Of a DNA stretch of 64,000 nt, positions 696 through 63,941 are shown piece by piece; position 1 is the first letter of the stretch; every line of letters starts with the position of its first letter. The notes under the pieces are model-generated. The model did no database searches and was not told the DNA's origin. It worked only from the letters and a program-made list of their open reading frames with translations. This DNA comes from Tribonema minus (lineage: Eukaryota > Sar > Xanthophyceae > Tribonematales > Tribonemataceae): positions 372,001 through 436,000 of the forward strand of contig JAFCMP010000549.1 in NCBI GenBank assembly GCA_017506865.1. The letters run 5' to 3'. Position numbers and translations under genes: made by a program.

Positions 696-3600
696 CTACG
701 CGTCGGCAGCAGGCGCGGCATCGCCGTGCAGCGACGCAACAGCTTCCGCTGCGGCAGCGTCCGCGGCGGCGGCAATCGCGGCAGCTTGCGCTGCGCCGCC
801 TTCCGCAGCAGCGGTGCCTGAATCAGCAGTAGCAGCGGTGCCATCTACAGCACCAGCAACTACTGCGGCTCCTGCTTCGGCAGCAGCAGGTGCTGCCGCC
901 TCCGCAGCATCAGCATTCGCACCCACAGCTTCCGCAGCAGCGGCGGCAGCGGGCGCCTGCGCGGCATCGGCGGCTAAGACGGCCGCCGCTGCTTCGGCAC
1001 CTGCAGCAGCGCCCGACGGCGGCAATTCCGAGGCGTCGCTGGCCGCGCGCTCCAGCGCCTCCTTCGCCGCCGCACGCGCCGCCTCGTACGCGACAGAGTC
1101 ATCGGCGCCGCCGTTCGCAGCGCTGCTGCCGTCGCCGTTGCCCCCATCCGCGAGCGCCGCCGCCGCGACCATGGAGTAGTCTCCGGACGCCCTGGCACTA
1201 ACGCCGTCGCTCCCCGGGCGCAGCCTCAGGTCGATAATGACGCAGCTGCAGTTGTCCATGGTGCCCTTGGCGAGGCAGCGCGCGAGCAGCGCCTCCGCGA
1301 GCGCGCCGACCATGCTCTCGCGCGCGTGCCGCGCCGCCGCCTCCGCCGCCGCCGCCGCCGCCGCGCGCCGCGTCGACGGCAGCGCGAGCACCGGCAGCGG
1401 CGCCTGCGACGCCGCCGAGGCGGCGCTCGCCGCGGCCTCGTCGAGCTCGTCGTCGGTCATTTCGTCGGCGTTGCCGGCGCTGGCGCGGCGCTCGCGGCGC
1501 GCGGACGTGACGACGGCCCACTCCGCGAGCAGGAAGTCGCACACGTTCTGGTTAGACATGACGTCCCACACCTGCGGCATTTTATTGGGGGGGGGGGGGG
1601 GGGGGAGGGGGGGGTGAGGCTCAGCTTGAATGTGTGTCAGAGTGTGTCGGGCACCGCATGCAGGCGGCGATGGGCTGGTCTTTCAAAGCAGTTCAGTCAG
1701 CTCAGTAATTGAACCGTGTCAGGGAACAAGGGCACCGCTCACACGCAACTTGACCATTCGTCGAGCACAGTGGACTGCAGCAAGGGGGCACCCTTAAAGG
1801 ATGTCACTTGATGAAACACCGCAAGCTGCGCCGCGAGTGCAGTTCCTGCAACAGTACGTACCGCACTTGAAACGTCACATACGCATTTGCACCCAAAAGT
1901 GCAACAAATGCAACAAATGCTCACTGCCAGTGTATAGTACTGTGTACGGTACTGTACTGTACTGTACTGTACTTACCCTGTCGCACGCCAGTATGCTGAA
2001 CTGATCACGTGCAACAGTCTGGTGGACTGACAGTGTACAGTACCACCGTGTAGTGTACTGTAGTACTGTACTGCAATGTACTGTACTGCACGTAGCCCAT
2101 CGCGCGCCAATATGATGAACTGATCAAGTGCAGCAGTCTGATGGACTGCCAGTGTACTATACAACCGTGTACTGTACTGTACTGTACTGCACTTACCCCA
2201 TCGCTGGCCAATATGATGAACTGATCGTCATCCTGTCGTTCCATTTTGACCACCGCTGGCCGTGGGGATACTATTTGCTCATCCTGAGGCCTGCACACAT
2301 ACGCACACACCAATAGGTGACATCAGTTGAGTTGGCGGAGGGAAGAGCATGGGAATGACACTGGCGACGGTCGTTCATCCGAAGGCGCGCATACATGCAT
2401 ACACACCAGAACATCTATACATGACATCAGTTGAGGTGTCAGATGGGAAAGCATGGGTATGGCACTGGTGTCACAATGAGCGGGTGAAGTACATTGCTTC
2501 AATAGAGTCCAGCGTCAATGCGATGGGGTGTGCGCATGTCTGGACAGACCTGCGCCCGCAATCATCGTACATTGAGCGTTGCAGCCTCGTCTACTCTGTT
2601 TGCCATGTACTATGCCGTGCACATGCGTCATGCACTTTGTAATCTGTTTTGAAGCGACAGTCGTAAAACATTCACCCTGTGCTCTTACACCATACCCCCC
2701 CCTCCCCTCCCTGTACCTACACCAGCGCTCACCTCCGCTTGTCCGTCTTGAAGTGGAAGTCCCCGAGCGTGCGGCTCGTGGCCATGGCCATGTAGCAGTT
2801 CGGCGCCATCACGCGCGGCACGGCGGGGTCAAACACATCCACATACCCCCCCGCGCGCCGAATCCGTGCTCTCTCCTCCGGAACATTGGGCTTGTGGTCC
2901 GTAGACAGCGCCACCGCCGCGCCGCCGCGGCACAGCACGGCACGCGAGTCGCCGCAGTTTGCCACCCACAGGTGCGTGTCGCCCACGACAGCGCAGATGG
3001 CCGTGGTGCCGTCCTTGGTGGCGGCTTCGCGCAGCGCGTTGTCCGTGTCCAGGAAGCCCTGCAGGGGGTGGCAAGTGGGGGAAGGGGTAGGGGGGGTGAG
3101 GGGTGTACCCAACAAGATTAAACTCAATTCAACCAAATCTTCAGAGGTATGGCAAAGCCTTGGCTTCACGTGCTTGGTTGTACCACTGCCAATACTGCTG
3201 TGAGCAAGACGGCGTGAATGCGCATCTTGCAGAGGACACCCATGCTGCTGGCTGGGCCACTTTGAACACCAGAGCACAATCAGAACTATTGTGTGATGAC
3301 GAGGAAACTGTAACTGCCAACAGTTTCACAAAGGTGATGTCATCTGCATCATGAACATCACATTCGTGCAGCTGAAACGCACTTCACCTCCAATCAATGT
3401 GTATGTAGCAGCACGCCATACACTACCAGGGCTTTCCACGGCACAGCGTTCAGCGCGCCGGCAGTCCTTTATGACACTATGTGCCAGCAAGCCCCAGTGA
3501 CCGTACAAAGCTCCTGGGAAAAGGTTTTGCGTGAGCCCAGAACTACCACATGGCTGCACTTCAACTGGTGACGCTCCATGCGCCATCCGTGCTGTCGAAG

Positions 3601-4510
3601 GGACCTCTGCTCTGAGACAAATGGCGGCTGACGAAGCAGCAGTACCAGCATACCCTAGCAGTATCATACAAACCCCAAGCCGACGCTTCGAGCTGCCATC
3701 AGTGCAACAGCATTGACTCTGCAGTACAGCATCGCGTGCCCTTGACTAGCGTCTCGATCTCTGCTTCGGGTTGGCCTGTCTGCTTCACCTCTGGCATGGT
3801 GGTGAGCTGCGCTTCCAACATCTATAAGCCTGAGTGGCCTCGTCAATTCCATCACTTCCTGATACCTTCCCATAACACAGAGTCGGACTTTAACCCTTAC
3901 CGCAACTCTAACCACCAGACACTGCACCGTGTTACAGAACTGTTGGCTCCTCGTGCATGCCAAAAGCACGCTTCGCCTCGTCCCCGCAAACGCCAAGGGA
4001 CATGCAACTTCCACTGCAACAACTCGCCTGCACCAGGACATGCGGCCTCACCCAAACATTTCAACTTCAACCACCACTTCAACTTCAATGACTTGCTGCA
4101 CCAGGATGCGCGATCCTCATCCAATACCTCAACTCCAACCACTACTTCAACTTCAATGAATCGCCTGCACCAGAGCGCGCCGAACACCTCCAGTAACTCA
4201 ACTTCAACCACAACTTCAACTTCAACAAACTCGCCTGCACCAGCGCGCCGTCCACGTCCCCCGCCTTCCACTGCGCCGACTTCACCACAGCCGGCACGAT
4301 GTGCTCCGACGCAAAGGACGAAGCAGACGGGCCCGAGTGTCCATCGAAGATGCCGCCAAAGACCACGTCAGGCGCGCCGTTGAAGTTTGCGTGCGCTATC
4401 GCCATATCCTCCTGGTTCCGCCGCCAGCCCTGCATCTTGCACGTGGCTGCGGCCACGTGCAGTTTCTCGTGCCATACGAGGCTGAGCTCCTTCTCATCGT
4501 TCGGCGCGCC
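696..4510 (-). CDS. PP2C-family Ser/Thr protein phosphatase, 5' exon not found
   Basis: This is a metal-dependent protein phosphatase (PPM/PP2C) that removes phosphate from Ser/Thr of target proteins. Exons on the minus strand are 4510-4235, 3058-2733, 2290-2197 and 1571-696, and the phases agree at each join. The visible 523 residues carry the family motifs in order: QGWRRNQEDM and GIFDGHSG (first metal-binding Asp), DGTTA, VANCGDSRAV, TSRTLGD, ILASDGVWDV and DNCSC near the C-terminus of the fold. After that comes a long low-complexity Ala-rich tail of roughly 170 residues that typical PP2Cs lack. The intron after 4235 begins with GC (GCGAGT), so it is a GC-AG intron. The first visible exon opens with GAPNDEKELSLVWHE after a CAG acceptor and has no Met, so at least one upstream exon is missing from this model. 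Junction copies fill three of its introns. Family assignment is very secure. The start and the substrate are unknown. Confidence 0.9.
1930..2226 (-). repeat. Three tandem copies of a PP2C donor junction
   Basis: The end of the exon encoding QFIILASDG and its GTAAGT donor (2226-2191) is repeated twice further into the intron, near 2125-2090 and 2005-1972, at a spacing of about 100-120 bp. The copies keep the exon-like bases (…CAGTTCA.CATA.TGGC…) followed by a TACTG-rich intron start. The copies carry substitutions in the Asp-Gly motif and one has lost the GT. A (TACTG)n microsatellite lies at about 1937-1975. Confidence 0.8.
4021..4235 (-). repeat. Four tandem copies of a PP2C GC-donor junction
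   Basis: The exon end GCGCTGGTGCAG and the GCGAGT donor recur about every 69 bp, with junctions at roughly 4235, 4166, 4097 and 4029 on the minus strand. Each copy is followed by GTTGAAGTTGAAG-like sequence. The first copy is the functional junction by phase and protein homology, and the others are diverged. Confidence 0.8.
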
Positions 4511-5170
4511 CTGTCGTGGTGCGCAGCGGCGGCGGCGCGCAATGGCAGCAGCGATCAGCGGCGCGCACGCAATACGTACACACAGCAGCGCGCAGCTTTA
4601 AATCATGCAATTGTATTCTTGCGTGCATGTATTGTGAAATTGAATTCTGTTTGTGCCATATGAGGCTGAGCTCCTTCTCATCGTTCGGCGCGCCCTGTCG
4701 CGGCGCAAAGCAGCGGTGGCGCGCAATGGCAGCAGCGATCAGAGGCGCGCACGCAATGCGCACACACACAGAGAGTGGCGGCAGCATGAAAGTCATGCGA
4801 TTGCCTGCGTGCAGGTATTGTGAAATTGAATTCTGTTTGTGCCATACGAGGCTGAGCTCCTTCTCATCGTTCGGTGCACCCTGTCATTAGCGTAGCGGCG
4901 GTGGCGCGCAATGGCAGCAGTGATCAGCAATACGTACACAAGAGAGGGCGGCGGCAGCGCGGCAGCCTGAAGGTCACGCGATTGCATTTCTGCGTGCGTG
5001 CATTGTGCGATGGGTTTCTGTTTGTGCCATACGAGGCTGAACTCTCTCTCGTCGTGCTGCGCGCCCATTGTCACCGAGCACGGGCGGCAATGGCTTGCAA
5101 TGGCAGCAGTGATCAGCAGCGCGCGCGTGATGACATGACCAAGCGCGGTTACAATGCACACATGCATACA
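4469..5170 (-). repeat. Four tandem ~185-bp copies of a PP2C acceptor junction
   Basis: Units start at about 4469, 4653, 4839 and 5024. Each holds the acceptor and the first exon bases (coding for DEKELSLVWH or a variant) and then a shared intron-like stretch containing GCAATGGCAGCAG. The unit nearest the rest of the gene (4469-4652) runs on into the true exon. The distal copies are progressively diverged; one reads DEREFSLVWH. Confidence 0.85.
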
Positions 5171-9585: not shown

Positions 9586-10034
9586 GGGTGCTGGCACCCC
9601 TGGCAGAAGGAAGCGTGCGCGCGGCGGAACAGGAATTGCGAAGGAGAGCCGAGTTCGGCGCTGCAGGCGAGCGCTGCGGCAGTGGCAGCAGCACCATCGC
9701 CACCAGCAGCAGCAGCGCAGTGGCTGCAGCGGCAACGCACAGAGGCCTGCAACTTACGTACCTACCTGGGGGCGGAAAAGAAACTCGCGCTGTACAGAAC
9801 GGCCGCCGCCGGCTCTCGCCGCGGCGCAGCTGCAGCAGACGCTGCCGTGGCGCTCGCCGCGCGCTGCGGTCGAGCATCGCAGAGCGGTGTGCATCTGCAC
9901 ATAGTTCTGTGGCCCTGTTGAGCCGTGTGCATGCCTACTAGCCGATGGCTGGAGGCTGACACGCCCACGCCCGTCGCCTTAAGCGTGCATGCCACGCAGC
10001 CGCCGCTAACCAGTTGCAGGCTCGACAAGAGCGG

Positions 10035-10205
10035 GTTGTGGGCAGCGGCGGCGCGGCGGCAGCGGCGACGCGGCGGCAGCGGCGACGCGGCGGCAGCAGC
10101 GGCGCGGCAGCAGCGGCGGCGCGGCGGCAGTGGCGGCACGGCAGCAGCGGCTGTGCGGCAGCAGCTGCGGCGCAGGTGCTGCGGCGCGACGCAGCGGCGG
10201 AGAAG
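10035..10205. repeat. GCGGCGGCAGC-rich low-complexity tract
   Basis: Imperfect tandem CGGCAG/CGGCGG triplets span about 170 bp downstream of the UPF3 stop. Every frame reads as Ala, Arg or Gly/Ser runs, so the open frames here are compositional. Confidence 0.75.
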
Positions 10206-15986: not shown

Positions 15987-15989
15987 GAG

Positions 15990-21385: not shown

Positions 21386-21391
21386 TGGGGT

Positions 21392-22637: not shown

Positions 22638-25600
22638 ATGACCATGGCGATGACGACGACGACAGGGCGAGCAAAGGCTGCTGTGATCGTTCCATTGGTA
22701 TTTTCTGCCACCGCATTGGGCGCCGCGCAGTGGATAATGCGCAGGTGAGCTGACTGCCAAGCTGATGCAATGTTTACTTGTACCAAGTAGGCTGTTACTC
22801 TCGATTTGGCGTGCAAGAGGACCACCAGGGCTGTGACGCGTCGTCGCGATGGATGTCCACCTTAAAAGTCACACACACAATGTCAGCGTCCTCGAGCATT
22901 CAATCAGCTAATGCTTGCATTCTATGAGCACACGACATCCCTCAGAACGACTGATTGAATGCGCAGCACATCAATTCTGCAGGGTGCCACACAGCAGTCA
23001 AATCATTCGGCTCGATCTTATCCGCTGAAAAGCTTAGAGTGTATGTCAGACGACCTGCAGTATCAGTGGAGGCACCGTGCCTTGAATAACAGGGGGGGGC
23101 ATTGAATTCTGGTGATGGTACCTATTTCTCATCGAATTTTGATGATACAAGCGCAGCAGTCTGCCGCTCTATTTCACATGCATGATGTCACAAGGGGCAA
23201 CAGCACTGCGCTGCCTAAGGCAGCAGTCATGTGCACCGGAAGACAGGGGCAGGCGGCGAGCAAGCAACGACGTAATGTCTCAACCAGCCTGAACACGTCA
23301 GGCTCACGGTTGGCAGCTCCATGTATTGCACCATTGCATAAACGCGTACACATCCCAGGCTGCATGCAATATATCCAGCACCATGCCTGCAGGCTGCATG
23401 CAATATATCCAGCACCATGCCTGAGTACTAGTCTACCACTCACTACTCCTAACCCTAAACCAAACCCTAACCCTAACACCATACGCGCTGATGCGAATCG
23501 CCTCATTCATCCAGCACCAGTACTAATTGAGTTGGTGCTCGACTGGCCAAAGATGGGAGCTCGACCGACCACTCACTACTCTATACACGCGCTGACTGCG
23601 CATGGCCGGTACCAAAAACCACTCCTCTCAGAGTCCTCTGGCCAAAGATGGGAGCTCGACAAGCTGACGTCAACACCACGATGTCCCTACCATGACGTAC
23701 CTACCGTGATGTACCCACCAGTATTCCGCCATGCTGCTGCCAGGGTGAGGCGCAGGATGCGCCAGAGCCGCATGCTGCGCAACGGCGAGCGCGTGCCCAT
23801 CGACCCCGCTGTGCTCAAAGTGGGCGACTATGTCACGCTGCGAGGCGTGGTGGGTGCGGACGAGGCGCTGACCAGCCCGGGACAGGCCGTGCAGTGCGTG
23901 CGGTACATCAGGCGGAAGGTGGGTAGGTATGTAGAGGACTGAATGGGTATGGTAGTAACCGATATCATATTAAAATATAGCTTTTAATATGTAAGGTAGG
24001 TAAGTAGATGTGCAGTGCGTGCGGTACATCAGGCGGAAGGTGGGTGTGTAGAGGGCTGTATGGGTAGTTACAGTGGTAATTGATAAGGTAGGTAGATAAG
24101 GTGGTCACATGGTCACATGGGTAGGTACCATGGCAACATGGGTAGATGTTGCCATGTAGATGGGTATGTAGGCTATACCTGTGTCTCGGGGTCAGGGTAG
24201 TTGGTTGGTAGTTGGGGCTGTGGTCACCTGCTTGTCCGCATTGAAGTTGGCGCAGCGTCGGTGCCATGAGATGGGGCGCATGCATCGCAGTGAAGTCTTT
24301 GGATTCATTGTGGCCTTGACAGCAAGGCATGCTGATGGTGAGTGCCTGATGGCGAAATGTCTACTTCAAGGTGAAGTTGACGTTGATCTGAAAGAGTTGC
24401 TTTGTGACGTTCAGGATCATCATGATGATGTCCATTGGCATTGAAAGCCAGGTCGCTAGCTCATCTTAGAAGGACAGGCAAGAGCTGGTCCTCTTCTCAG
24501 CGTTGACACCAGCAGTGACGCGTTAACGCCTTCGCCCCCTCCACAGCTCTCATTTTGGCTGCTACGATGTGCCCAGCATACGAACATACACTGCTGCCAA
24601 AACCCCTGCCACTGCTCACAAGCACCTTGTTATATTTGGAAAACTCCATATGTACATGTACTTCAGTCGCCATTTCAGCCGCAATGCACCAGCACAACTT
24701 GAAGCTGTGTTTCAGCTGTCGGCCAGCCGCTTACAATGACATGTAATGCAGCCATGAAAAGCGGATTATACTTGACATGGTCTGTGAGATACTCCCTTGA
24801 GTATACCTTCATGCCACTGCTAACAGCAGCGCTCTGTGCCCCAGGCGCAAATGATACAATGCGGTGATACAGCACTGATCATTCCACGAACGCATGTCGC
24901 ATGCAGGCAGACTTGCACACCTCCTCTGCCCGCCCCTCTGCAGCGCTTGCACACCTTCCTGTCACCCCTTCAGTCGAGAACGTCAGACTACAGCCCTAAC
25001 CCTTACCCTAACCCTAACCCTTGGCGCACACTCTGTACGTTACTCCAGTGGCGTCAGCGTGGCTGCTATCCTCTGCTGCCAATTTCAAACAGCGCTGACA
25101 CACACACCCCTCGCACCGCCCCCGCACCGCACTCACCGTCCCCCCTGCTCCCCCATGAAGTTACCCTCTGCCAGATTCAAACAGCGCTCACGCCCCCCCC
25201 GTACCCCCTTGCACCGCACTCACTGCCCCCCCCCTGCTCCCCCCTGAAGGTGCGCGTGATTGACCAGCGCATGGGCAGGACCACCAACACGCAGAGCGTC
25301 CATGGCTACGGCGCGCACACCGTGTCCAGCCTCTTTGGCGCCATCGTGTCCTCCATGGGTGGCCTGCTTGGCGGGGGTCTGAGCGTATCGCGCAAGGTCA
25401 GTGTGCGTGTGAGCGCTGTCACATGTTGAGCGGTGCTGTAGCGTTCCTCACGGCGAGTTCACGGTGCATCAATGCTTCAATGATGATTTATTACACTCTG
25501 TCACGCAAGCTCTCACGCAAGGTCGGTGGGTGAACAGTGCCGCGTGTTGAGCGATGCTGCGCGGCAGAGTTTCCCATGGCGGCTGTTTATTATCAGTGAT

Positions 25601-26939: not shown

Positions 26940-26973
<34 letters not shown>

Positions 26974-33145: not shown

Positions 33146-35491
33146 ATGCCCGTCGAATCCACGCAGACGCTGCGCCGGGGTCAGGTCGCCGTGACCCCGT
33201 ACTACTGTGAGGAGAACATCTACCTGCTGTGCCAGCAGCTAGATCCAGCGCTCACAGCGCACGCAGTGTTCATATCGAATGCGCAAAAGGAGGTGCCGTA
33301 CTGGTGCCAACGCGTCGCTACGGGCCCCGAGGGCATCATATTCTGGGACTACCATGGTGAGCGCTGCTGCACGTGTGGCATTGCTCAGCGCTGCTGCAAG
33401 TGTGGCATTGCTCAGCGCTTTGGCTGAGCATGTATGTATTGCACATGGGTTTCATATGCTGGGACTACCACGGTGAGCGCTGCTGCGCATGTGGCATTGC
33501 TCAGCGCTGTGGCTGAGTATACATGTCATGTGGCCTTGCTCACGCTGTGGCTGAGCATGTATGTAATGTAACGCGGGGTTCATATGCTGGGACTACCACG
33601 GTGCGCGCTGCTGTGTGTGGTGGCATTGTTCAGCGCTGTATTCAAAGTATGTACACATGTCCCATGAAAACGAATGAAAAGATCGTAGAGCTCTAAGTAG
33701 GCGACAAGGGATGGTTAGCCGCAAGTGCCCTCCATCAATAATCTTATCATACGGGTTTCATATGCTGGGACTACCACGATGAGCGCTGCTGCACGCGTGG
33801 CGTTGCTCAGCGCTATAGTTGAGTATGTATGTATTGTCACAAACGGATTCCAGGCGATTACGCTTCAGCTTATGACCCAATGCACGGGAGTCAGCGGTGG
33901 GCGCCAGCTTCAGGCGGGGGTTGTGGTGGGACTATGCTACGCTATATGCTCTGCTGTGCTATGCTACGCTTTGCTATGCTGTGTAAACTGTGTACATTCG
34001 CGCTGCACCAGGGTTGACCGTGACCTGTGGGGTGCATGAATGCGTTGTTCGTCAGCTCTTTGAACCCATGATTATATGCCACTATTATGCTGTTGACACA
34101 GGGAGCCAGTCTTGGGGCGCCGATGCCTGTTTCAAAGTGCTCTGACACCCACGCTTAGGGTTAATTAGGGTTAGGATTGGGGTTAGTTTGTGGGACTCGA
34201 AAGCATCTGTGAAGATCTAGGCCGAATCCCAAACCCAAACCCTACTTAGCTGTGGGCCACAGGCCAGTATGTCATCAGTGGATTACGTTGCACTCCAGCA
34301 AGTAAGTTTTTTTCTTTGTTTGTGCATGGCACTCTTCACTTCCATACCTGCATCACGACGATCAGCTGCGCTGACTGACACCGCTCTCATGTGCGCCTGC
34401 AGTGGTACTGCTTGTCAAGGACCCGGACAGCGGTGCAACATGGGTCTACGATTACGACACGAAGCTGCCATGGCCGTGTCCAGCACGGCAGTACTTTGAG
34501 ATGTCCTGCAGGCCACACATGGACTTGGGCCCTTAGTGAGTGCAATAAACTTAACCCTAATACTAACCCTAATTTCAACTCCAACTCTAAGCAACATGCG
34601 CATATACATGCGAGAATATATATAATGGCATAAGCTTGTGTACTGTTCAGATGACGGCGACATGCGCATGAAAATGCATGGATGAGTCACCGTAGTACAC
34701 ATGCATGGTTAACGCCTGCTTGGATGGCCAGTCCCACCATTGCACTGGTGAAAAAGCCTGTGACGCTCCTCCCTATTCCTATTCCTAATCTCCACTTGCG
34801 CCTGTTGTACACGCATCACTGGTTGTGAGTTTGTTGAGAGGCATGCATGGGCGTGCACTTACCCTGACTGCAGCATGACCTTCCTATACATAAAGTATAC
34901 GAAAGCAACGCTCAGCAGGTTTTGCGAGGCTTCATTGCTTCCTAGAGCACTCGTTTTTGGGCTAATTCACCATGGCTTGGGTGCAGCCTTGCGACAAAAC
35001 GTAACATTGCAAGCGCGGCCTTTCGACACTTCTGTTCTGTGGCAGGGCTCACTTCATGTCTGCTCCGTGGGATGGTTGACCCTGGAACTACGTCATGGTG
35101 CTTGTATGGTAGCCTTGCGACCAAGCAAGCATAAGCACCGCCATTGTCTCCCACACGTTCAAAATATCACATTGCGGCAATCCAATTAATCGCGCTTATC
35201 TGTCAACTGTCACCTCAACCCGCCTCTTGCCTGCTACACCGCGACAGCCAGCACAGCTTCCGAGCCATTCCGCACCAAGACTTCCTCGATCACTTTTCCT
35301 CGGACCGATCTGACATGAAACGGCCGGACGGCACCTGGCAGTCCCCCCCTCCCCTGCACCCCCTGCTACGAGGGCCCAAAGCGGCGCACGCGCATACGCT
35401 GCCCGAATTCATAGACATGACGGGCGGTATCGGCACAGTCCTCACGCTGCACGAGCTCATGGAGATGTTCTGCAACTATGTCACGCCGTGA
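33146..35491 (+). CDS. NTAQ1: Protein N-terminal glutamine amidohydrolase (NTAQ1)
   Basis: NTAQ1 deamidates N-terminal Gln to Glu, feeding proteins into the Arg/N-degron degradation pathway. Three exons (33146-33356, 34403-34535, 35248-35491) join in phases 1 and 2 and give 195 residues, close to the ~205 of the human enzyme. The catalytic Cys lies in YYCEEN (Cys21), the His in FWDYH (His70), and the Asp in VYDYDTKLPWPCP (Asp87), all in the family order. Downstream blocks FRAIP, SDRSDMKRPDGTW and LPEFIDM match the family C-terminus. The first intron begins right after the first base of the codon following the catalytic His and contains four junction copies. The enzyme is probably cytosolic, as no targeting peptide is visible. 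The start follows a CATTCACACA tandem tract. Confidence 0.95.
33340..33830 (+). repeat. Four copies of the NTAQ1 exon 1 donor
   Basis: The exon end TGGGACTACCATG/GTGAGCGCTGCTGC is echoed near 33460, 33588 and 33767 as TGGGACTACCACG followed by GTGAGC, GTGCGC and ATGAGC. Each is followed by GTGGCATTGCTCAGCGCT and GAGTATGTATGTATTG-like sequence. Two echoes retain a GT that could act as a donor. Confidence 0.88.
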
Positions 35492-36707: not shown

Positions 36708-38279
36708 CTACACGTCCACAGTACCCGGCCCAGCGGACCCTGCACCCCCCCCCCCTCTGGCACTGCTACTACCGTAGGTATGCACAGTAGCGGCGGCAGC
36801 AGGCGTCGCCGTTGCGCTGCTGCTGCTGCTGCTGCTGCCGGGCAGCAACGATGCGAACGCTGCCTGCGGCTTTGAGAACCACTTGTTGCCGCCGCTGCCG
36901 CCGGCGGGTGCCGGTGGCGGAGGCGGCGGCGGCGGTTTTGAAAGCCATGATGGTGTTGGCGCAGGTTGCATGAGAGGTTGCACGACTAGTGGGGGTTGTT
37001 GGTAGGGCTGCTGGAAGGCATAGGGATCGGGCTGATAGTGCTGTGAGCTGTATAGAGGGGGGGGTTGCTGGTGTGGCGGCAGGGGTAGGTACGAAGGGGG
37101 GGCGGGTACGGCGCCTGTGATGATCAGGTCCATGGCTAGTTGCGGATCGTTCTTGCTGGCCTGATGTGGAAAAACATAAAAAAAAGCAACGCAGCGCCGC
37201 GTCAGTGGCTGTGGTGGACACATTGGGTCAGTCGCCTAAGTAGTGCAACTGCCTTACACGACCCTTACATGTCAGGCCAGACAGCGGCGTTGGTTGCGGC
37301 GCCTTGTCCAACTGGCACAACAACAGGGCGTTGACCATGACGGCAGCTGCAGCTAGGTGCAGATGCGCATGGCATGCTGCACAGCATCTATGAGCACCAG
37401 CGTACGACCATCGTCACCATGCCGCCACGTGCGTGCGTCAATACAGCGGCACGGCTTTCTGAGCAGCGGTCTGTGCAGCTCCAAAGCATCTCCTCTCGCG
37501 CTCCAACAGCACGAATGCTGCTCCACCAACGCAGAGCAGAGCAGCTGGCAGGCCTGATGATGGGGCGCACAGTTTGCTGGGGACTGTATTGCATGGGTGG
37601 GGGCCACTGATACGGCATCCGACACGGCATTGTGTTTGCGGTTTCTGCGACGCGAGGCGACGTGCTCTCAACAACCAATAACACAACCCCAGATAACCGT
37701 ACGCCGCAGCGCCGGAGCAGCGCCCAACGCAGCAGCAGCAGCAGCAGCAGCGCTCACCTCCAGCGCCGCGCGCGCCTGCGCCTCCGCGAACCCCATCTCG
37801 CAGAACTGCTGCACGAGCTGCGGGTTTGCCTGCGCTGCCGCCGCCGCCGCTGCTGCCGCGTCCCGCGCCTCCCCCCGCGCCATGCGCGACGCCACCGCCG
37901 CCGCCGCCTGGCTCGCCATCGTGTACGGGTTCCACCCCACGGCGCCCCCCCCGCCCCCCTCCCCCTCTGCCCCCTGCTGCGCCGCCGCCGCTGCTGCCGC
38001 CGCCGCTGCCGCCGCCGCTGCGGAGTCGTCGGGCGGCGCGATGTAGCGCGTGCCGTAGCGCGCCGTATCGAGACAGAAGAAGAGGCGCACCGATGGCGCG
38101 TCCCAGAGCGCGGGCACTGCGGCGAAGAGGCGCTGCAGCCAGGACTGCAGCTCTGCGCGGCGGCGGCAGATGAAGGCGCCCTTGACGTCGCTGTTGTGGC
38201 CCACGGCCTCCTTGGGCGGGAATGCGGGCGCTGCGCCCTTGGGTATTATGCCCTTCGACTGCGCAGCAGCAGCGGCAGC

Positions 38280-38358
<79 letters not shown>

Positions 38359-40123
38359 CAAAAAACATTAGCCGTGCCCTTCGGTATGATACCCTTGGAC
38401 TGCGCAGCGGCAGCGCCGGCAGTGGAAAAGACATTAGCCGCGCCCTTTGGTCACTGCGCAGCGGCAGCGCCAGAAACATTAGCAGCGCCCTTGGGTATGA
38501 TACCCTTGCACTGCGCAGCGGCAGCGGCGGCAGTGCCTATGACAACATTAGCCGCGTACCGCCCCCGCGACCACAAAGCATGCACAGCACCCCCCCCCCC
38601 CCAAAAGTGGGTGTGCCAACTTCAACAGCTGCCAACTTCACAAGCAACGCACCAGGTCCTCGAAGAACGCGCAGATGACGCTGTGGCGCTTTGCAATTGC
38701 GCACTGCTGTACTGGTGCTGGCGCCCAGCATACCGCCCCCAAGACCACACAGCACGTACATGCCACAAACAAAAGCCAACTTCAACAGTGACGCACCAGC
38801 AGGTCCTCGAAGAACGCGGATGACGCTGTGGCGCTTTGCAATTGCGCACTGCTGCACTGGTGCTGGAGCCCAGCATACCGCCCCCGCGACCACGCAGCAC
38901 GCACATGCCACAAACAAAAGCCAACTTCAACAGTGACGCACCAGCAGGTCCTCGAAGAAGGCGCGGATGACGCTGTAGCGCTTGCGCATGAGCACTGCTG
39001 CTCTGGCGCTATCACCCAGCATACCGCCCCTGACCACACAGCGCGCACATGCCACAGTAAACTGCCAACTTCAACAGTGACGCACCAGCAGGTCCTCGAA
39101 GAACGCGCGGATGACGCTGTAGCGCTTGCGCGTGAGCGCGACGGCGCTATCGCGCAGGCGCGTTGTCTGCAGCACATAGTCCACGTACGCGCCCTTGAGA
39201 CCCAGAAACCCGCCCTCGTCCTTGCGCTGCTCCGCGCCCACCACCGCCACGTCGTACGCCGGCAGCGCCCTGCGTTCGACAGTGAATCGTGCCGTTAGTA
39301 TCGGCGGCGCTGACCCTAGCCCTAATTCGAAACCTAAATCTAGCCCTAACGCTCCGCGCCCACCACCGCCACTCATTGGCCGGCAGCGCCCTGCATTCGA
39401 CAGTGAGACGTGCCGTCAGTAACAGCGGCGCGGGCCCTAGCCCTAACCCTAGTCCTAACCCAGCCATAATCCTTGTCCTTGCACTGCTCCGTGCTCACCA
39501 CTGCCACGTCGTACGAGGGCAGCAAGCGCCCTGCGTTTGACAGCGTGACGCACTTGAAAAAAGCAGTTGCTACTCCTCATTAAAGCCACAGGCAGCGCCA
39601 CGCTGCCCCGCGCCCATCATCACAGTGCCGACCGCCAGCAGTGCCACGCGGCCGACAGCGTGATGTGCTTGGAGTGTGGCAGTGCTAAACCACCCCTAAA
39701 TGTAACTCCAACTTCAACTAATGACCACTTTTGGCTTGCTGCTATCACATGATTGGTGGTGCGTGACTGCTGTCACACTGGCATGCAATCACGTCAACGT
39801 GTTGATGACGCAATAGGGTGCTACAGTAGCATACGGGTGCACACTACTTCAAGCACTTGAAGAAAGACACCATCCGGTGAGGCACCTGTCCAGCCCCAGG
39901 GGGCTACCTGGACAACATTTTTCTCATAAAATGAAAGTGCTCTCCCCCTGCCCCCTGCTTTACTTAATACACACAACTCTAATTGCTGAAGATGCAAAAC
40001 CGTGCGTCACCTGTCTAACCCCAGGGTCTGCCCTGTTGCCAGCATGTGAGACAGCGTTGTCTGCTGCTGTGCGGCCGCCGCAGCAGCAGCATCGTCGCCC
40101 CCCCGCAGCCCCGAAAAGCTCAT
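36708..40123 (-). CDS. PX domain - UBA domain protein with Pro/Gln-rich tail
   Basis: Four minus-strand exons (40123-40011, 39269-39086, 38258-37758, 37160-36708) join in phase to 416 residues. A PX domain, which binds phosphoinositides on endosomal membranes, spans about residues 40-145: LPAYDVAVVG, then TRKRYSVIRAFFEDLL with the key RY-S, then FPPKEAVG and a basic ICRRRAELQSWL helix. An Ala-rich linker follows. Next comes a UBA domain at about 244-284 (LVQQFCEMGFAEAQARAALE/ASKNDPQLAMDLIITGAVP), with the canonical MGF loop interrupted by an intron; UBA domains bind ubiquitin. The C-terminal 130 residues are Pro/Gln/Tyr-rich and low-complexity. The combination suggests a role in sorting ubiquitinated cargo. 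No strict orthologue comes to mind. Introns 1 and 2 are filled with junction copies and a (CTG)n tract. Confidence 0.88.
38235..38560 (-). repeat. Four copies of the PX-UBA exon 3 acceptor plus a long (CTG)n tract
   Basis: The acceptor CTGCTGCGCAG/TCGAAGGGCATAATACCCAAGGG is echoed upstream near 38403, 38458 and 38518 as CCGCTGCGCAGT..AAGGGTAT-type sequence followed by GGCTAATGT. About 26 uninterrupted CAG triplets (CTG on the coding strand) lie at 38279-38356, immediately upstream of the true acceptor, in the position of its polypyrimidine tract. Confidence 0.88.
38600..39110 (-). repeat. Four ~130-bp tandem copies of the PX-UBA exon 2 donor
   Basis: The exon end (GCGTCATCCGCG…TTCTTCGAGGACCTGCTG) and the GTGCGTCACTGTTGAAGTTGG donor region recur at about 39086, 38948, 38787 and 38660. 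The first is the genuine junction by phase. The next two keep the donor bases perfectly, while the last has lost three bases. Confidence 0.9.
39225..39555 (-). repeat. Three copies of the PX-UBA exon 2 acceptor with TTAGGG-like spacers
   Basis: The acceptor ACTGTCGAACGCAG/GGCGCTGCCGGCGTACGACG is echoed at about 39390 and 39528. Between echoes the coding strand reads GGGTTAGGACTAGGGTTAGG and similar. A weaker fourth relative lies near 39610-39665. Confidence 0.85.
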
Positions 40124-55845: not shown

Positions 55846-58800
55846 ATGCAGGCAATTACTGCTGCGCTGCTGGCTCTTCTCGGCGGCGCCAGCGCGTTCG
55901 TCTCTGTGCCTCACACAGCGATCACCAGATATGAGAGCCGCAGCGCGCTGTCGATGGGCCTCAGCCCCACATTGGCGAAGACGTTCCCCAGGGACTTCAC
56001 GAAGGTGCTCGCTGCCTCACTGGACCAGAGGCTCTGCGCATGATTCATGCAATCAACTTCAATCTGTTGCGTTCATGCTGAAGACCATCGGGTTGAGAAC
56101 CTCCATGCGTTCAAGATGCGATGCACCATGCTTGCAGTTACGCTGACTTGCTCGTCGTCGATGCAGGCGTGTTTTGCTTGTCAATAGCATGTTTTCTGCG
56201 CTCAATCATACGCGTATCTGCTGTTGGTCACGCAGATCCCGACCGGCACTGACTACGGCACCGGCGTTGATGCCCAGCTGAACAAGGTACAGTAATATGG
56301 TTTCATATTTCTCAGACAGATGTTTTGGACAATGCGAGTGGCACTTTGCATCGTCAGTAGTCTAAAGTTCAGCAAACGGCTCTGCAAGGCAAGATGCCTA
56401 GAAAGGCACTTTTTGGAGGTCATGGCAACCGCTGCAGAGGTGTTTTGAGGCGTGTGTCACGCAGTGATGTCCCTATGCTGATGCCACAGAATGCATCCAT
56501 GCAAACCTCTAGCCTCCGGCTGATGAGCTACTTGGCACTGCAGATGCCTTCCTTGGCCTGCCTTTTCATCAGTGGTCCACCCCCATGCTCTTCATTACAT
56601 TACAGATCCCGCACAGCATCGTTTACACCCACGCATGTGCACACACCTTGCCACCTGCTCCGCTGAAATTGCCATACGGCAACGGCTCTCACGCGCAATA
56701 ACTGCCTGCCAGCTGCGCACTTTACACGAACTTATCTAATTTCAAGCCTAAATTGCTGATCATCATCACCATCGTCGTGGCTGCAGGAGGACGAGGCCAG
56801 CCGCATAGCGTACCTGGAGCAGTCCCTGGCGGAGACCCTGAAGAAGGTGTCTCAGGTGAAGGAGCGTCCCGTATTTACCACAGCGCTCATCGCCGGCGAC
56901 TGTGTCATACTCGACGCCATCGCCAAGGCGGGCCTGCTGGACAAGATCGACGTCATCTTCATAGGTGAGGTGAATGCTTTATCTTGTTGCACAGTTTGAG
57001 TATGTGGGAGTGTATTGCTGCGTGCCTGGCGGTGTTGTGGGTGCTCCAGACTTCAAGGCACTGGCGCAAGCAAGAACTCAACCAATCCTCTAGTGCATGC
57101 TATTTTCCAGCAGCTGGCGACTCTGCGGAAACGCACCTGCATCCCTGGTGGTTCCAAGTGGATTTCCTTGGGTTTTTTCGTTCTTGTTGCATAGCGACAC
57201 ATCTGCCAAGTACATCAATACCAATACATACATGCCCTATTCGGGTCTGCCCCTACTTGCAACAGTAGCATTCATTCAATGCATCACAATTATTGGCCTG
57301 CGGCCTCTGTTCTCAGCCTGATTAGCGTTGAACAGCGAGATTGCGCATTGGCGCCGATGCTCCATTTGAGGCGACTACAGAACTGAATGCACAAACGAAT
57401 GCACCTATACAGTACTGAATGCACAAACGAGTGAACACCTGCATGCCCGCCTGCGTGTCTGATTCTCATTTGACATGCTCACGTTTGCATACTCTTGCTG
57501 TGCGTGTTCTCGTTCTTCTGGTTGTGTCAGACACGTTTTTCCTGTTCCCGGAGAGCCTGGAATTTATTGAGGAGCTGGAGCAGCACTATGGCTTCAAGGC
57601 CAAGGTGAGAAGTGGGAATCTGCTTTGCGAGGCTAGGGTTTAGATAACCCTAGCCCTAACCGTATCGCATGGAGCACTATGGCTTCAAGGCCAAGGTGAG
57701 CTGTCTGAGAAGCGAAAATCTGCTTTTCAGGGTTAGGTTATAGGTAAATCTAGCCCTAAGGGCTTCAAGGCCAAGGTAAGCTGCTAAAAAAGCGACATCT
57801 GCTTGTTAGTGTTAGGTTTTAGGTAACCCTGTAGCCCTAACCCTATCGCATATAGGAGCTGGAGCAGCACAATGGCTTCAAGGCTAAGGTGAGCTGCTTG
57901 AAAAGCGAAATCCACATTTCAGGGCTAAGTTGTTAACCCTAGCCCTAACTCAACCAAATATATCTGCCACAGCCTACTTGGGCCTATAATGCACTGGGCA
58001 TTATTTCAAAGCATGGATCTATTCAGTGGTGGAGTGCTAAGCGCCAGCGTACATGGTGGCATTTGTAAGTCAACCATGCTAGAGGCTTATTGTGTAACTG
58101 GCGGGGTCAGTGCAGCACTGCTCATCTATCCATGTACTTGATGTGCAGAGTGCCGCTGTATGACATGGTGAAACAGGCAGCTCTGATGTGTTGATCTGAG
58201 ACCTGCATTGATCTGAGACCAGCAGACACTGGAGCGTAGAGACGACGTGTAGCAGAGGTATGAAGGTGAGTGTAAAACAAAAAAAAGTAGGGTTGGTTAG
58301 GCTTGCTGTGGTACGGTCTGGTGCGCTATGAGCGCAGCAACATCGAAGCAAAGTTTGACGAATGAAAAGAGCACAAAACATCAGAGGATGCTGGCTGGTT
58401 GATGTTTTGTGAGCACTGCAAAGTGCAGGCGGTATGCTTTTTTTAATGGTGCAAGCATCAGTGTGCAGTGCAGAAAGACATACAATTTTTTATCAAACAA
58501 CCTATGAGGTCACTACTGTGCTCAGCAACGCAGGTGGCAAGGCTAGGCCAGGGACACATCTTGGGGCATGGGCATCAGTCTTGCACACTTGTCAGCAGAC
58601 GTTCTCGGGGTCGTTGCTTATTACTATTTTGCTTCGGACACACCATGTCACCATGATTCTTGAAAATGAGCCTGACCTTAGCCCATAATTGTTCAGCTCA
58701 AACTGGCATGGAAACCACTTGAAGTTGAAGTGAAGTGGATCTTGGATTTACTTGCAATGTAGCCTTGCAACACCTGCCAGAAAACATTGCTGCAGTTCAA

Positions 58801-61800
58801 GCGTCAGCATGACTTTTGGCCCGGCTTCCGCTGCTGAACACTGCTGTGTGCGCTTCCTCTGCAGAGGTACCACGCTGCCGATGTGGCGACCCAGGAGGAG
58901 TTCTACGAGAAGTGAGTGCCCAGATTGTCGTAGTTCTCTGAGGTTGGGCTGGCCTTGCAGCCACTACTAGGCGTCAGTTACAGAGGTGACAGTTTCGCCC
59001 GTTGCATGTCCGGTCCACCACGGTGCTGTTGAACACAGCGGATGACTCTCGCATGAAGCACAGCTTCTACGGAAACAGAAAGTTGTCGTGATTCATGTAC
59101 AAGTGCTGTTTGTTACGTTTTTAGACTGTCGCGCCAACACGCCCCGGCACCTGGAGCTGCTCTTCGTGCCTAGTAACTGTAGAGGCATGACAACGCTTCA
59201 TGGTTTGTCAGCATGTACGTGGGTGGCGCCATTTGCTGCATCACCGATGATTGCGCAACTGACAACCAGTGGCGCCTTTTCTGTGTAGCCGTAGCCATCT
59301 GATTTCTGGTGGAGACAGTTGTAAGCTTAACGCACAACGTGTTTCACTTTTTGCTATTTGTAGGTATGGTGAGGGCTACTGGATGATGGTTGTTGACCGG
59401 TACGACGTTTTTTGGTTTTTGTGTGTACGCTTTTGTATTTGGTTATTATAGGTCAGGCGAGAGCTACTAGTACTAGATGAAGGATTTTGACAAGCATGGT
59501 GTTTTTTTTCCTGTTTTCGGCATATTTTACATTTCTCGCTTCTGGTATGTAGGTATGGCGAGGACTACTGGATGGAGGACATTGACCAGTACGACCTGAA
59601 GTGCAAGGTGGAGCCGCTGCAGCGCGCACTGCGGGAGACTAACACGGACGCGTGGATCAATGGGCGTCGCAGGGACCACGGGGCGGAGCGCGCAGCGCTG
59701 CCCGTGTGGGAGGGCACCAAGGCAAGTTCAACTTCAACTTCAAATTGAACTTGCATTTTAGAAAGCGCCGCAGGGACCACGGGGCGGAGCGCGTGGCGCT
59801 GCCGGTGTGGGAGGGCACCAAGGCAAGTTCAACTTGAATTTCAGCTGTGGGTTGAATTTGCATGGCTCTATAGCAGTTAGTAAAATTTGAGCAATCGTCA
59901 GCCGTCCTGCTTTGTTTGAAGGCCAAACTGAACTATGCCAGCACTTTAGAGTGGTGAGGCAGACTGCGAGCGTCGTGGAGGGCACCACATTCAGCTTCAG
60001 CTTCAAACTTGCTGACGAGTTTGCGGAAGTTTTCAGCGCAACTGCGGTTACACGCAGCAAGCCCACTGTTGCGGTACGCTCAGCACAGCACTGAGCAGAC
60101 GACAAACATTCCCATTGAGGTAGAGATGGCGTTTTGCAGAGGATGCCTGGCCCTGTCATACGCCAATGCGATCGTATGCGGTTAAACTCCAGCTATGTAG
60201 GCCTGTTTTAGACAGTGTAGAGCATTGAGATCAATGCGCTCCAACAATGCGGGGCCGAAATCTGCCTAATTGGTATGGTGCAATGGCCAGAACTTCTCAA
60301 AATTTAGCCTGCACCATCACCGAGGCGCCAAGCAACTGCTTTTGCCAGCTGGCGGACAATGCTGTGATTACAGTTGTGGCGATGGAACGATCGCTGCCAG
60401 CTTTAGGGCTCGCACACGCAAGCCACGAATGTATAATACAGCCATGCAGATATCTATGGTGTCCATCAGAGATGCCCCGTTAACTGGTAGCACCGGTAGC
60501 ACCGGTACCCGTACCAGTTTTTGTACCAGTTTTAGCCGGTAACTGGTTGCCGCTCGCTAACCGGTACGGGTAACTGGCCGCGTGAGGCAACCCGTAAACA
60601 CGTACCGATGCCGTAGCTGATGACCGGCGCCACCAGTTAAAATGCAAGTAGAGGTTCAGGGTTCGGGTTCGGGTTATTCAGCGAGTTTATTCTTCTCGTG
60701 CCTTGAAGTTAGTTCAGCGCGGGAGATGTGGGAGATGCACAGGACCCACGACAGGTGTAATGGACGGTATACTGGCAGATATGGTCGTGAATCGACTAAC
60801 TGATGCTGCTGTTGACATATGGGTTCGGCTAGTGATGGCATGCAAGCGGTCCATGTGGCGCAAAAATCGAACACAGGTCTCCGATTGATGGATGCCGACT
60901 GTTTGATGTCACTGAATGCACAAGCAGCTTCTGCAGGCTGAGATAGCAGGTTGGATGTAACGCATAAGCATCCATCAACCGACTCGGGACGCGATGCATT
61001 CATTATGAGGAAAGCAACTCCAATCGGATTGTTTCCGCTTCTGATGCGCTGTCGCAGCCAACGAAAGGCTCAAGCTTCAGCTGCGTGATCTGTAAACCTG
61101 GATTAGACATGTGACAGAGGTTGTTTGCTGATCCACAAGTGCAAGGGTGCCAATTGCAGAGTGACAGTCAAAACAGGTGGCAGCAGGCAGGATATATGAG
61201 CATGCTGCCCATCCTTTTGCTGGCTGCATGCTGCACACATGTTGCTGACAGCCTTTGCATCGTGACGGGTGCACTTTGAGTGTCACTTACAGGAGCGAAT
61301 ACTGCGCTAGTATGCTGTGGGTAAGGCTTTGAGCTGTGCTCACTATGCACCTGGGTCCATTCGGCTGCATAACCTAGAATCATCGCGCTCCTAACAAGCA
61401 TTATTCCTGAAGCCTTTGTAGTTGTATGTACTGACCGCACGGTATACTACGTATGCTATGCATATGAGAAAAGCCCTGGCATCACTAGTAAAAAACTGGT
61501 ACCACAGGTGAAAACCGGTGAGACCAGTTTGACCGGTTTCACCAGTATACTGGTACCGGTTGTCACAGCACACCAGTTAAACTGGTACGGGTAGCTGCTG
61601 GTACCAGTTATTGAGTACTGGTACCGGTACCGATTAAAAATTTTCTCACGCTACGCGCGACTGGTGCAATGATGGCAGTACGGGGATCTCTGGTGTCCAT
61701 TGTATGCAATATTGTTGAAATAAGCGGAAATAAAAGTTCAACACCAGTATGAACACTTTTATTTCACAATGCTCTTCCACTGTGTCGTTCATTGGTTTTT

Positions 61801-63941
61801 TGGATGGCTCCAATCATCAGTGAGGACAGATGCGGTATTTTACTGAGAATGGCGAATCAGACCGACCATACCCATCCGACTCAGATTGGCGATTTAAATA
61901 AAGTCACGAGCCAGCGCTGCGGGCATGACTCATGGCTCAAACATACACGTGTGTGGGACGCGAAAGGCGTGGGCGCTATGACGATACGTTTTCCATACAA
62001 CACCGGCTTGTCGGAAAGCACGACGTGTCGATATCAAACCATCGGAGCGCCGCGCGCCGTGCCCCTTGGACAGTTGAAGTTGCACTTGTTGAAGTTTGGT
62101 GTGGCATGCAAATGCCTAGTGCAGGCTTCGGTGCAAAACATCGCTTTTGGATACAGACTCCACCGCTCTCAAGGTTGACCATTGGGAAACTAGTGTCGAT
62201 TGTGACTTGCGGAGCAGGATGACCATCTATGATGCAGATGTGATTTTTTTGTGGTGTGATGGGATGTCATTCTCCACAGTCGTGGCGGACCGCATACTAT
62301 AATGTCCACTTTAACGCTGCCATCAGCACTGCTGCTCCAATTGGGAACATCAGGAAGAGCAGAAACCCAGTGATCATAACTGCTGCAAGGCGCAGTGCAA
62401 GATTGTGCCACGTACGCATGTATGTGTACATTTGTCTTCTCAGCATAGCAGATAACAGCACGCAAAAATGCTCCACTTCATGATCTGCAGCCTGCCAGCA
62501 GCACTTTGCGCAGGTCTGAGCCCCCGTTGTCTGCCATAGGCCCTGACTCACTGCCATGAATGTTCCCCTGCACACAGGTGAACCCCCTGGCCTTCTGGTC
62601 GTTTGAGGACTGCTGGACCTACCTGCGCAAGCACAACGTCCCCTACCACCCCCTGCACGATGTGGGGTTTTCATCCCTGGGTGACATGCAGTCCACTCGC
62701 AAGGTGAGTTGAAGTTGCTTACTGTCCAACTGGCCGGTTGCTCGTCTTCACTTGGTGCAATTGCACGCACGCACACTCATGAGTGGTTGCGTACGCATTC
62801 ACTGATGATTTCTCCACTCGCAAGGTGAGTTGAAGTTGCTCACTGGCCAACTTCACTTGGTACACACTTGGCACCAAGTCAGAGCTGCTCGATTGACACC
62901 ACGTGGCTGCATGACTGAAGTGGTGGTTGTGTCGTTCAATACGTCCACTCGCATAGTGGGTTGAAGTTGCTGATTGCTCAACTTCACCTGGTGCAATTGC
63001 ACGCACATGCGTTCATGAATGATCGCGTATGCATCCTGCCGCTTGGCTGTTCAAATCGCGTGCCGCAAATGCTGATACGCAGTGCATTTGCGGCAGCCAC
63101 ACACGATTTCTCGCCTTGCTGACACAGTTTCGCTGTTGCACAGGTGCCTCTGGAGCAGTCATGTGCCACAAATGGCCATAGGCAGCGCGTTTGCAGCAGC
63201 GGTAGATGACTCTTCACCTCACTGACACACTGTTGTTGACACGCGCATTTTCGTTGACGCGCAGGTGCCCCTGGAGAAGTGGTTCACGTATGGCGGCGAG
63301 CGCTCCGGCCGCTTTGAGGGACTCAAGAACAAGGACGGCAGCCTCAAGACAGGTAGACATATAGGGTTGGGGCTTGTGCCGATCGCTGCTGCTCACCGCG
63401 CGCACTGAAAAGTGTAAAAGTCGCCAAAGCCAAACCCTAATCCTAGGGTACATGGGGTCAGGTTCATTGCTGATTTGCTGCCGCTTGAAGCTGTGTCGCC
63501 AGTGACTACACTGTGTTTGGTCTGCTTGAAGCTTGTAAGAAATGCCCTTGCTATACTGTGATACGTCATGGCAGTGCATGCGGTCATGTCGCAGAATACA
63601 CTGCTCACTGGGTACACAACAACTGCTGATTGCTTAGGTCGCTCGTCGCATGCAGCCGCCTTCTGGCACTTGCATAGTGCCTGACAAACGAGCACATCAA
63701 GCTGTGTTGACACAGCGAACCTAGGCCGTTGTGTGGCTTCATGCACTTGTTGTTAGCTGTCACATCCATGATCATTTTCAGCACATGATGATCACGACTT
63801 GCACCCCCCCGTTCACGCATAGTACCCTGTCACATCAGATTGTCTTGGTCATCTAGATGCAGCAACTGACATCGCAACGGCTGCTCGTTCTGCTCCGGCA
63901 ACTTTCCAGAGTGCGGCATCCACACGGAGATCAAGACATAA
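55846..63941 (+). CDS. Plastid-targeted PAPS reductase-like enzyme (CysH family)
   Basis: Nine exons (55846-56004, 56236-56286, 56787-56964, 57531-57604, 58865-58911, 59553-59721, 62578-62703, 63265-63352, 63910-63941) join in frame to 307 residues. CysH enzymes reduce (phospho)adenylylsulfate to sulfite in sulfate assimilation. The first 18 residues form a signal peptide ending ALLGGASAF, the ASA-Phe cleavage site of heterokont plastid preproteins. The core shows FTTALIAGDCVIL (P-loop-like), DVIFIDTFFLFPES, KVEPLQRAL, HGAERAALPVWEG and PLHDVGFSSLGDMQSTRK. The catalytic motif is ECGIH (Cys299) near the end. The paired CC motifs that bind the iron-sulfur cluster of APS reductases are not visible, which favours the PAPS type. 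Unlike plant APR there is no thioredoxin-like C-terminal domain. Intron 6 is GC-AG (AAG/GCAAGT) and 2.9 kb long. The exon 1 donor (GTGCTC) is weak and chosen by frame, so that junction is the least certain. Confidence 0.9.
57590..57950 (+). repeat. Four copies of the PAPS reductase exon 4 donor with TTAGGG-like spacers
   Basis: GGCTTCAAGGCCAAG/GTGAG recurs at about 57681, 57763 and 57871 after the true junction at 57604. Each is followed by GAAAAGCGAAATCTGC-like sequence and a GGGTTAGG…AACCCTAGCCCTAAC block. One copy also repeats GAGCTGGAGCAGCAC from further back in the exon. Confidence 0.92.
59360..59580 (+). repeat. Three copies of the PAPS reductase exon 6 acceptor
   Basis: The acceptor TATGTAG/GTATGGCGAGGACTACTGGATG (59553) has an upstream echo at 59366 (TTGTAG/GTATGGTGAGGGCTACTGGATG) and a weaker one near 59450. 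The 59366 echo keeps an intact AG and an open frame for about a dozen codons. Confidence 0.88.
59650..59840 (+). repeat. Two copies of the PAPS reductase exon 6 GC donor
   Basis: The exon end CGCAGGGACCACGGGGCGGA…GAGGGCACCAAG and its GCAAGTTCAACTT donor are repeated at 59768-59833 almost unchanged, with four substitutions. The echo keeps the GCAAGT donor and the reading phase. Confidence 0.92.
60480..61640. repeat. Paired clusters of ACCGGT/ACTGGTAC motifs in inverted arrangement
   Basis: Two ~120-150-bp clusters at 60480-60640 and 61490-61640, inside PAPS reductase intron 6, are packed with ACCGGTA, ACTGGTAC and GGTACCGG. The reverse complement of the first (AACTGGTACGGGTACCGG…GCTACCAGTTAA) resembles the second (AACTGGTACGGGTAGCTGCT…TACCAGTTA). 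They may mark the ends of a ~1.1-kb non-autonomous element. No transposase-like frame lies between. Confidence 0.55.
62690..62985 (+). repeat. Three copies of the PAPS reductase exon 7 donor
   Basis: CCACTCGCAAG/GTGAGTTGAAGTTGCT (junction at 62703) recurs at about 62823 and, with changes, at 62952. Each is followed by CAACTTCAC.TGGT.CA and by a partly shared tail. The second copy keeps a perfect donor. Confidence 0.92.
63110..63290 (+). repeat. Two copies of the PAPS reductase exon 8 acceptor
   Basis: The true acceptor GACGCGCAG/GTGCCCCTGGAGAAG at 63265 has an upstream echo at 63145 (TTGCACAG/GTGCCTCTGGAGCAG), preceded by a similar CTGACACA.T.T.G.TG block. The surrounding ~120 bp is also similar. 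Confidence 0.85.

Follow-up and report, generated by a model that had tools for sequence, protein, structure and literature searches.

Tandem Copies of Splice Junctions within Introns of Tribonema minus and Their Likeness to Lancelet Mirages

Results

Junction Echoes in the Window

The window is a 64,000-nucleotide stretch of Tribonema minus DNA (bases 372001–436000 of contig C546, in a genome of 158.18 Mb and 554 contigs). Five of its genes carry, inside their introns, copies of their own splice junctions: a PP2C phosphatase gene, a GIDE-like gene, NTAQ1, a gene termed PX-UBA, and a PAPS reductase gene. In the sample described below, a junction echo is counted where a copy crosses the exon–intron junction, scores at least 44, and lies in the adjoining intron within 1.5 kb. 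The window holds 13 echoed junctions in 12 introns. A sequence-only reading of this DNA had placed repeats at about 15 of 34 introns and in at least six genes; the figure of 34 was not reproduced, and the sixth gene, a dioxygenase, is not confirmed. Its repeats, at 47415–47776 and 48235–48691, are intronic and cross no junction by 8 bp or more on the exon ends set by the gene finder. Tandem-repeat and self-BLAST runs on the window also returned long-unit arrays that start inside exons.

The PP2C gene lies on the minus strand. The exon ending at 2197 (..FIILASDG/gtaagtgc) is followed by a donor array, 1930..2226, with a period of about 119 bp and a score of 110, whose copies run toward 1930; one of them lacks the GT. 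The acceptor near 2290 on the same strand has a weak echo (score 52.5). A second array, 4469..5127, has a period of about 184 bp and repeats the acceptor cgacag/GGCGCGCC, of which the real copy is at 4510 (score 136). The repetition of this acceptor and of the donor FIILASDG/gtaagtgc is apparent from direct reading of the letters. A donor-side array at 4007..4259 (minus strand, period 69 bp, junction near 4241) is of low complexity and rich in CAACTT. It takes in 19 bp of predicted exon, is absent from the finder-junction matches, and was excluded as low complexity from the homology-based set described below.

In the GIDE-like gene, whose match to GIDE (PF12483) scores 24 bits against a cut-off of 23.6, a plus-strand donor echo at 23889..24066 is offset by 121 bp from an exon ending at 23918. 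NTAQ1, also on the plus strand, has donor echoes at 33328..33841. Its Nt_Gln_amidase exon (33194–33355; exon end 33356, ..CATG/GTGAGC) is followed by three copies, offset by about +116, +244, and +422; in the last of them AT replaces GT. The name PX-UBA is that of the sequence-only reading; the PX match reaches 20.9 bits, just below the cut-off of 21.6. Here echoes flank one exon on both sides, with a donor array at 38629..39137 (minus strand, period about 145 bp, exon end 39086, CTGCTG/GTGCGT) and acceptor echoes at 39214..39550 (minus strand, exon start 39269, offsets 121, 261, and 376) that carry CCCTAA-like repeats. In a predicted exon of the same gene the trinucleotide GCA is repeated about 31 times in a row (38263–38356).

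The exons of the PAPS reductase gene, on the plus strand, were fixed by tblastn with homologous proteins. The best named match is from Tribonema minus (67% identity), followed by other named ochrophytes, namely Chrysoparadoxa, brown algae, and Heterosigma, among the best 120 of 306 matches listed. Four of its eight introns have echoes, one of them at both ends. Exon 4 is followed by donor echoes at 57570..57962 (donor 57604), three copies with GTGAGC, GTAAGC, and GTGAGC. Exon 6 has an acceptor echo at 59359..59595 (acceptor 59553), a single copy at about 59362 that keeps the TAG, and a donor echo at 59664..59843 (donor 59721), a single copy at 101 bp that is 92% identical and scores 113.5. The donor of exon 6 (59722) is a GC donor, GCAAGT, and its echo retains the GC. 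Donor echoes of exon 7 lie at 62691..63034 (donor about 62705, score 72); the acceptor of the same intron, at about 63265, has an echo scoring 48.5. The leader of this gene (55846–56004) reads ..GGASAFVSVP.., which we take to resemble the ASAF plastid-targeting motif of ochrophytes.

Frequency and Dimensions of Echoes across the Sample

The window was combined with five 50-kb blocks on other contigs, giving a sample of 314 kb, or about 0.2% of one genome. Genes were predicted with a small self-trained gene finder, trained on PP2C and other Pfam-supported exons. Ten of its 41 predicted spliced proteins, some trimmed, were scanned, and all ten matched a Pfam family with E ≤ 0.001 (PP2C, GIDE, 2OG oxygenase, PAPS reductase, ankyrin, DENN, ABC transporter, CLC, DEAD, and PX). 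The strong exons supplied 308 junctions, of which 70 were dropped for low complexity and a further 13 for a query or target of insufficient length, leaving 225.

Junction-crossing copies were found at 50 of these 225 junctions and in 46 of 169 introns. Among shuffled targets, 0 of 1125 reached even a score of 40, and a chance origin of the echoes is thus excluded. As the sequence-only reading had it, donors and acceptors are both affected (30/120 and 20/105), and the phenomenon extends well beyond the window: echoes are present in all six blocks and in 17 of 38 sampled genes. On finder exons the window block contributes 1 of 11 donors and 3 of 14 acceptors. The corresponding counts are 3/29 and 3/20 in the C35 block, 1/12 and 2/11 in C24, 5/19 and 4/20 in C522, 13/30 and 4/22 in C113, and 7/19 and 4/18 in C268. 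Scaled from 46 introns in 314 kb to the whole genome, the number of introns with echoes would be about 23,000, a rough extrapolation.

An artefact of assembly or of gene models might produce such a pattern, and the self-trained finder does sometimes call echoes as exons. Yet echoes are also seen where the exons were defined by protein homology. In a set whose exons come from family-profile matches or tblastn (for the window PP2C gene, from finder exons plus reading), echoes occur in 10 of 26 introns, made up of 4 of 15 outside the window and 6 of 11 within it; 4 of the 26 lost both ends to the low-complexity filter. At the level of intron ends, 12 of 38 tested were echoed, and the best shuffled score was 28. 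Moreover, 90 copies differ from the real junction by 2–30% in their flanks, which sets them apart from identical stutters of the assembly. An artefactual origin is therefore extremely improbable.

The nearest echo lies 72–401 bp from the real junction (median 140 bp, 50 junctions). Only the junction-proximal piece is copied, in keeping with the sequence-only reading: the exonic part has a median of 45 bp, with a standard deviation of 23 against 41 for uniform placement, and at 1 of the 50 junctions the copy reaches beyond a whole exon. Introns with echoes are longer than those without (median 829 versus 508 bp), which agrees with the suggestion that the duplications lengthen introns. Local repeats confined to introns are also common, with 120 self-hits against 19 in intergenic DNA of the six blocks, so introns gather local duplications in general.

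Placement of Arrays Relative to Junctions

The 102 introns bounded at each end by a strong exon contain 29 arrays. The donor is crossed by 14 of these and the acceptor by 8, whereas 7 cross neither junction and none crosses the two together; crossing means by 8 bp or more on finder exon ends. Uniform placement would yield 9.8 junction-crossing arrays (4.9 donor and 4.9 acceptor) instead of the 22 seen. The excess remains when a twofold odds bonus is granted for easier detection of junction copies, both for all crossing arrays (P = 0.005) and for donors (P = 0.021); acceptor arrays show no excess, 8 against 4.9 expected (P = 0.63 with the same bonus). For arrays of at least 85% identity, 11 of 13 cross a junction where 5.4 would be expected (P = 0.002; with the bonus, P = 0.048).

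A separate, coarser measure compares windows at junctions with windows elsewhere. Copies of score 44 were found for 64/225 windows at junctions (50 of them crossing), 293/2512 inside introns, 80/1973 between genes, and 28/336 inside exons. Raising the score to 100 leaves 19, 38, 21, and 1 on the same totals. Strong copies are rare within exons (1/336 versus 19/225 at junctions). Within the same introns, the ratio of junction to interior copies is 1.75, 2.21, 2.93, and 4.25 at scores of 44, 60, 80, and 100, with gene-bootstrap intervals running from 1.33–2.12 for the lowest ratio to 2.32–9.51 for the highest. A neutral simulation in which interior windows are tested one side at a time yields 1.3–1.5. 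The fraction of gene bootstraps with a ratio of 1.5 or less is 0.12, 0.008, 0.0005, and 0 at the four scores. The observed ratio is clearly above the simulated 1.5 at scores 60, 80, and 100, but not clearly so at 44.

These numbers bear on the possibility that splice junctions, donors above all, are mutational hotspots at which transcription, R-loops, or the step in GC content at the exon edge promotes local duplication. The donor and crossing excesses, the prevalence of crossing among the most similar arrays, and the ratio of 2.2–4.25 at scores of at least 60, where simulation gives 1.4–1.5, all favor such a bias. So does the persistence of the junction excess when GC is matched at 0.50–0.65, as do the clustering of exonic extents near 45 bp and the lower frequency of copies in intergenic than in intronic DNA. 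The profile of copies by distance is less accommodating: donors peak at 0.25 at the junction, against 0.12–0.13 at +45 to +105, but the profile is equally high again at partner positions 165–285 bp into the intron, and the acceptor profile is flat, just as acceptor arrays fit the neutral count. At score 60 the difference is small at GC 0.65–0.70 (10/63 versus 11/86) and absent above 0.70 (1/30 versus 2/28). A short exonic extent is also expected if longer exon copies are harmful, and the data come from 38 genes and include one rich block (C113, 17 of 52 junctions). We regard a junction hotspot as a possibility that falls well short of being the likely explanation. Its most far-reaching form would make donors the preferred sites of ongoing tandem duplication, with new sequence entering the growing intron at the exon edge as on a conveyor belt, and would replace passive tolerance by a genome-wide, junction-linked mutation bias; of this we are doubtful. 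The placement data are read here as mostly tolerated random duplication, together with a donor excess that this does not explain.

Divergence of Copies and Retention of Splice Sites

Within the exonic parts of the copies, mismatches at codon positions 1, 2, and 3 number 120/941, 93/945, and 182/924 (0.128, 0.098, and 0.197). Divergence at positions 1 and 2, about 0.11, is near half that of the intronic part at donors (0.207/2), which fits an exon held by selection, with drift of the echo alone in the exonic part and of both copies in the intronic part. At acceptors there is no twofold difference, the intronic part standing at 0.144 and the exonic part at 0.146, so a clean twofold signature is confined to donors. 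Indels in the exonic parts are mostly not multiples of 3 (51 of 60), and the distance from junction to echo, taken modulo 3, is distributed 18/17/15, with no frame preference. The frame and decay tests show no sign of a coding role for the echoes.

The copies carry largely intact potential decoy sites, as had been proposed: 48 of 56 donor echoes have the GT, and 28 of 34 acceptor echoes have the AG. This raises the question of whether echoes are functional and selection keeps them as backup, alternative, or decoy splice sites. GT is retained more often in donor echoes than among other nearby GTs (95/148, P = 0.003) or exon-side GTs (47/68, P = 0.034), and PWM scores of echoes lie above the level to which decay at the mixed flank divergence would bring them (P < 0.0005 at donors, 0.002 at acceptors). 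These comparisons suffer from a confounder: at intron positions the echo and the original each diverge. When the neutral rate is set at half the intron rate, so that only the echo changes, retention shows no significant departure from neutrality for donors (P = 0.08 for PWM, 0.20 for GT) or acceptors (0.25 for PWM, 0.81 for AG). The GT result (P = 0.003) and the PWM scores were accordingly dropped as signs of selection on echoes once echo-only divergence had been separated from two-copy divergence. With exon-part divergence as the neutral rate, the values become 0.001 and 0.03 for donors and 0.002 and 0.15 for acceptors, in the same order; with the mean of both rates they are 0.011 and 0.09, and 0.03 and 0.45. 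Since a higher assumed rate makes the sites look preserved, some weak constraint may exist, while at the echo-only rate neither preservation nor purging of the splice sites is significant. AG retention in acceptor echoes equals that of other AGs (46/55), and, as described above, there is no frame bias and the exonic parts take frameshifting indels. Maintenance of the echoes for a function in splicing is unlikely.

The nearest echo outscores the mean of the farther ones at 17 of 22 junctions with multiple echoes (P = 0.002). One 303-bp unit shows 4 mismatches in 308, so some duplication is recent, which is in line with the description of the process as active. Taken on their divergence, the echoes look like neutral relics.

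Discussion

Tandem repeats that span exon–intron boundaries have been described before, in lancelets. They were named “mirages” in the amphioxus Adh3 gene, and two amphioxus globin genes have mirages with units of 150–160 bp, at both boundaries (PMC3087553); TnC and PGBD5 are further lancelet cases (PMC3902484). According to these reports, mirage copy number differs between haplotypes, and splicing is undisturbed by the repeats (PMC3087553, PMC3902484). The Tribonema echoes are alike in several respects. Their repeat units span the boundary, as seen in the junction counts and in alignments of eight chosen arrays; both 5′ and 3′ boundaries of introns are affected; unit sizes are similar; and many, but not all, copies keep the GT or AG. 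By structure, then, the echoes belong with the mirages. The two differ in what has been reported of them. In these reports mirages were recorded gene by gene in cephalochordates, with haplotype and somatic instability and normal splicing, whereas the echoes, known from the DNA of one assembly, occur in more than a quarter of sampled introns of a distant lineage, with a measured decay.

The sequence-only reading pointed to no description of the pattern at this density. The structure itself was already described in lancelets, but no report at this density was found. In the literature covered, which took in few subscription journals and some listings in part, there are no such arrays outside lancelets apart from a single potato duplication, and none at genome scale. 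What is new here is the distant lineage, the density, and the evidence of decay.

The sequence-only reading also linked the repeats to the birth of introns by tandem duplication of exonic AGGT segments. This model, due to Rogers, is established together with single cases, as set out in a review (PMC3443670) and in a report on a potato RdRp gene in which a tandem duplication across an intron–exon boundary made a new intron (PMC4974935). Both resemble the echoes in that local tandem duplication within a gene yields copies of splice signals, and in potato the duplication likewise spans a junction. The resemblance ends with the outcome. In the Rogers model the intron lies between two copies, whereas an echo unit already holds one junction and its copies remain within an existing intron; that not one of the 29 arrays, in a set of 102 introns, reaches across the two junctions of its intron leaves intron birth unsupported. 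Several PP2C paralogs have an exon match that ends at profile position 159, and four of them were tested: L040 and L042 have echoes at this intron, and L034 and L041 have none, with the qualification that the L034 acceptor is of low complexity, while the score of its donor, 36.5, falls short of the required 44. Because introns at the same position occur with and without echoes, the echoes look younger than the intron. Intron birth is thus a very unlikely account of these arrays. A further system, the dual-specific splice sites of UBC (PMC10809524), shares within-gene tandem arrays with splice-site motifs; the UBC repeats are coding and are spliced in variable number, while echoes are intronic and out of frame.

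The explanation we favor, and consider probable, is that the echoes are mirage-type arrays, short tandem duplications that happen to span splice junctions and then decay neutrally in the intron. It is shown by the alignments and divergence that the copies hold the exon end, splice site, and flanking intron, and that they decay inside the intron in the way neutral sequence would be expected to. The process would begin with a tandem duplication that spans one splice junction by chance, through slippage, unequal exchange, or microhomology repair as candidate routes. Splicing would presumably stay with the outermost copy, the first donor or the last acceptor, as conservation of the coding sequence suggests; the mRNA would be unchanged, the duplication nearly neutral, and the intron longer. 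Exon definition may account for the tolerance, if a truncated echo with a single splice site is ignored. A duplication across one junction harms neither the coding sequence nor the outermost splice site and so can persist, which a duplication within an exon usually cannot; the latter would mostly be purged. Later duplications would add copies, and those deeper in the intron would tend to be older. The shortness of the exonic part may reflect either harm from longer copies or a bias in breakpoints. Weighing against tolerated duplication are the donor excess, the ratio of junction to interior copies above that of the simulation, an exonic extent tighter than uniform placement predicts, and the retention P values obtained at higher assumed rates.

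Should the sample be representative, roughly one intron in four of this genome has duplicate splice sites that are largely intact and mostly lie 70–400 bp from the real ones. Echoes would then constitute a natural test of how splice sites are chosen by position and of how cells ignore intact decoys, and they offer a measurable source of intron growth. They also widen the range of mirages beyond lancelets, to a distant lineage of eukaryotes.

Several short motifs were seen in the course of this work. CAG stands at some exon-side breakpoints, by eye, and is absent from part of the eight aligned arrays. Runs of CAACTT/AACTTC hexamers recur in introns of the window (4024–4259, 36674–36713, and 59722–59750), beside echo units at two of these places; doublets of these hexamers number 7 in introns and 2 in intergenic DNA, which are small counts. 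Doublets of the telomere-like CCCTAA number 29 in predicted introns (1.86 per 10 kb) against 3 in intergenic DNA (0.32 per 10 kb), and CCCTAA runs lie inside two echo arrays of the window (39310–39470 and 57640–57760).
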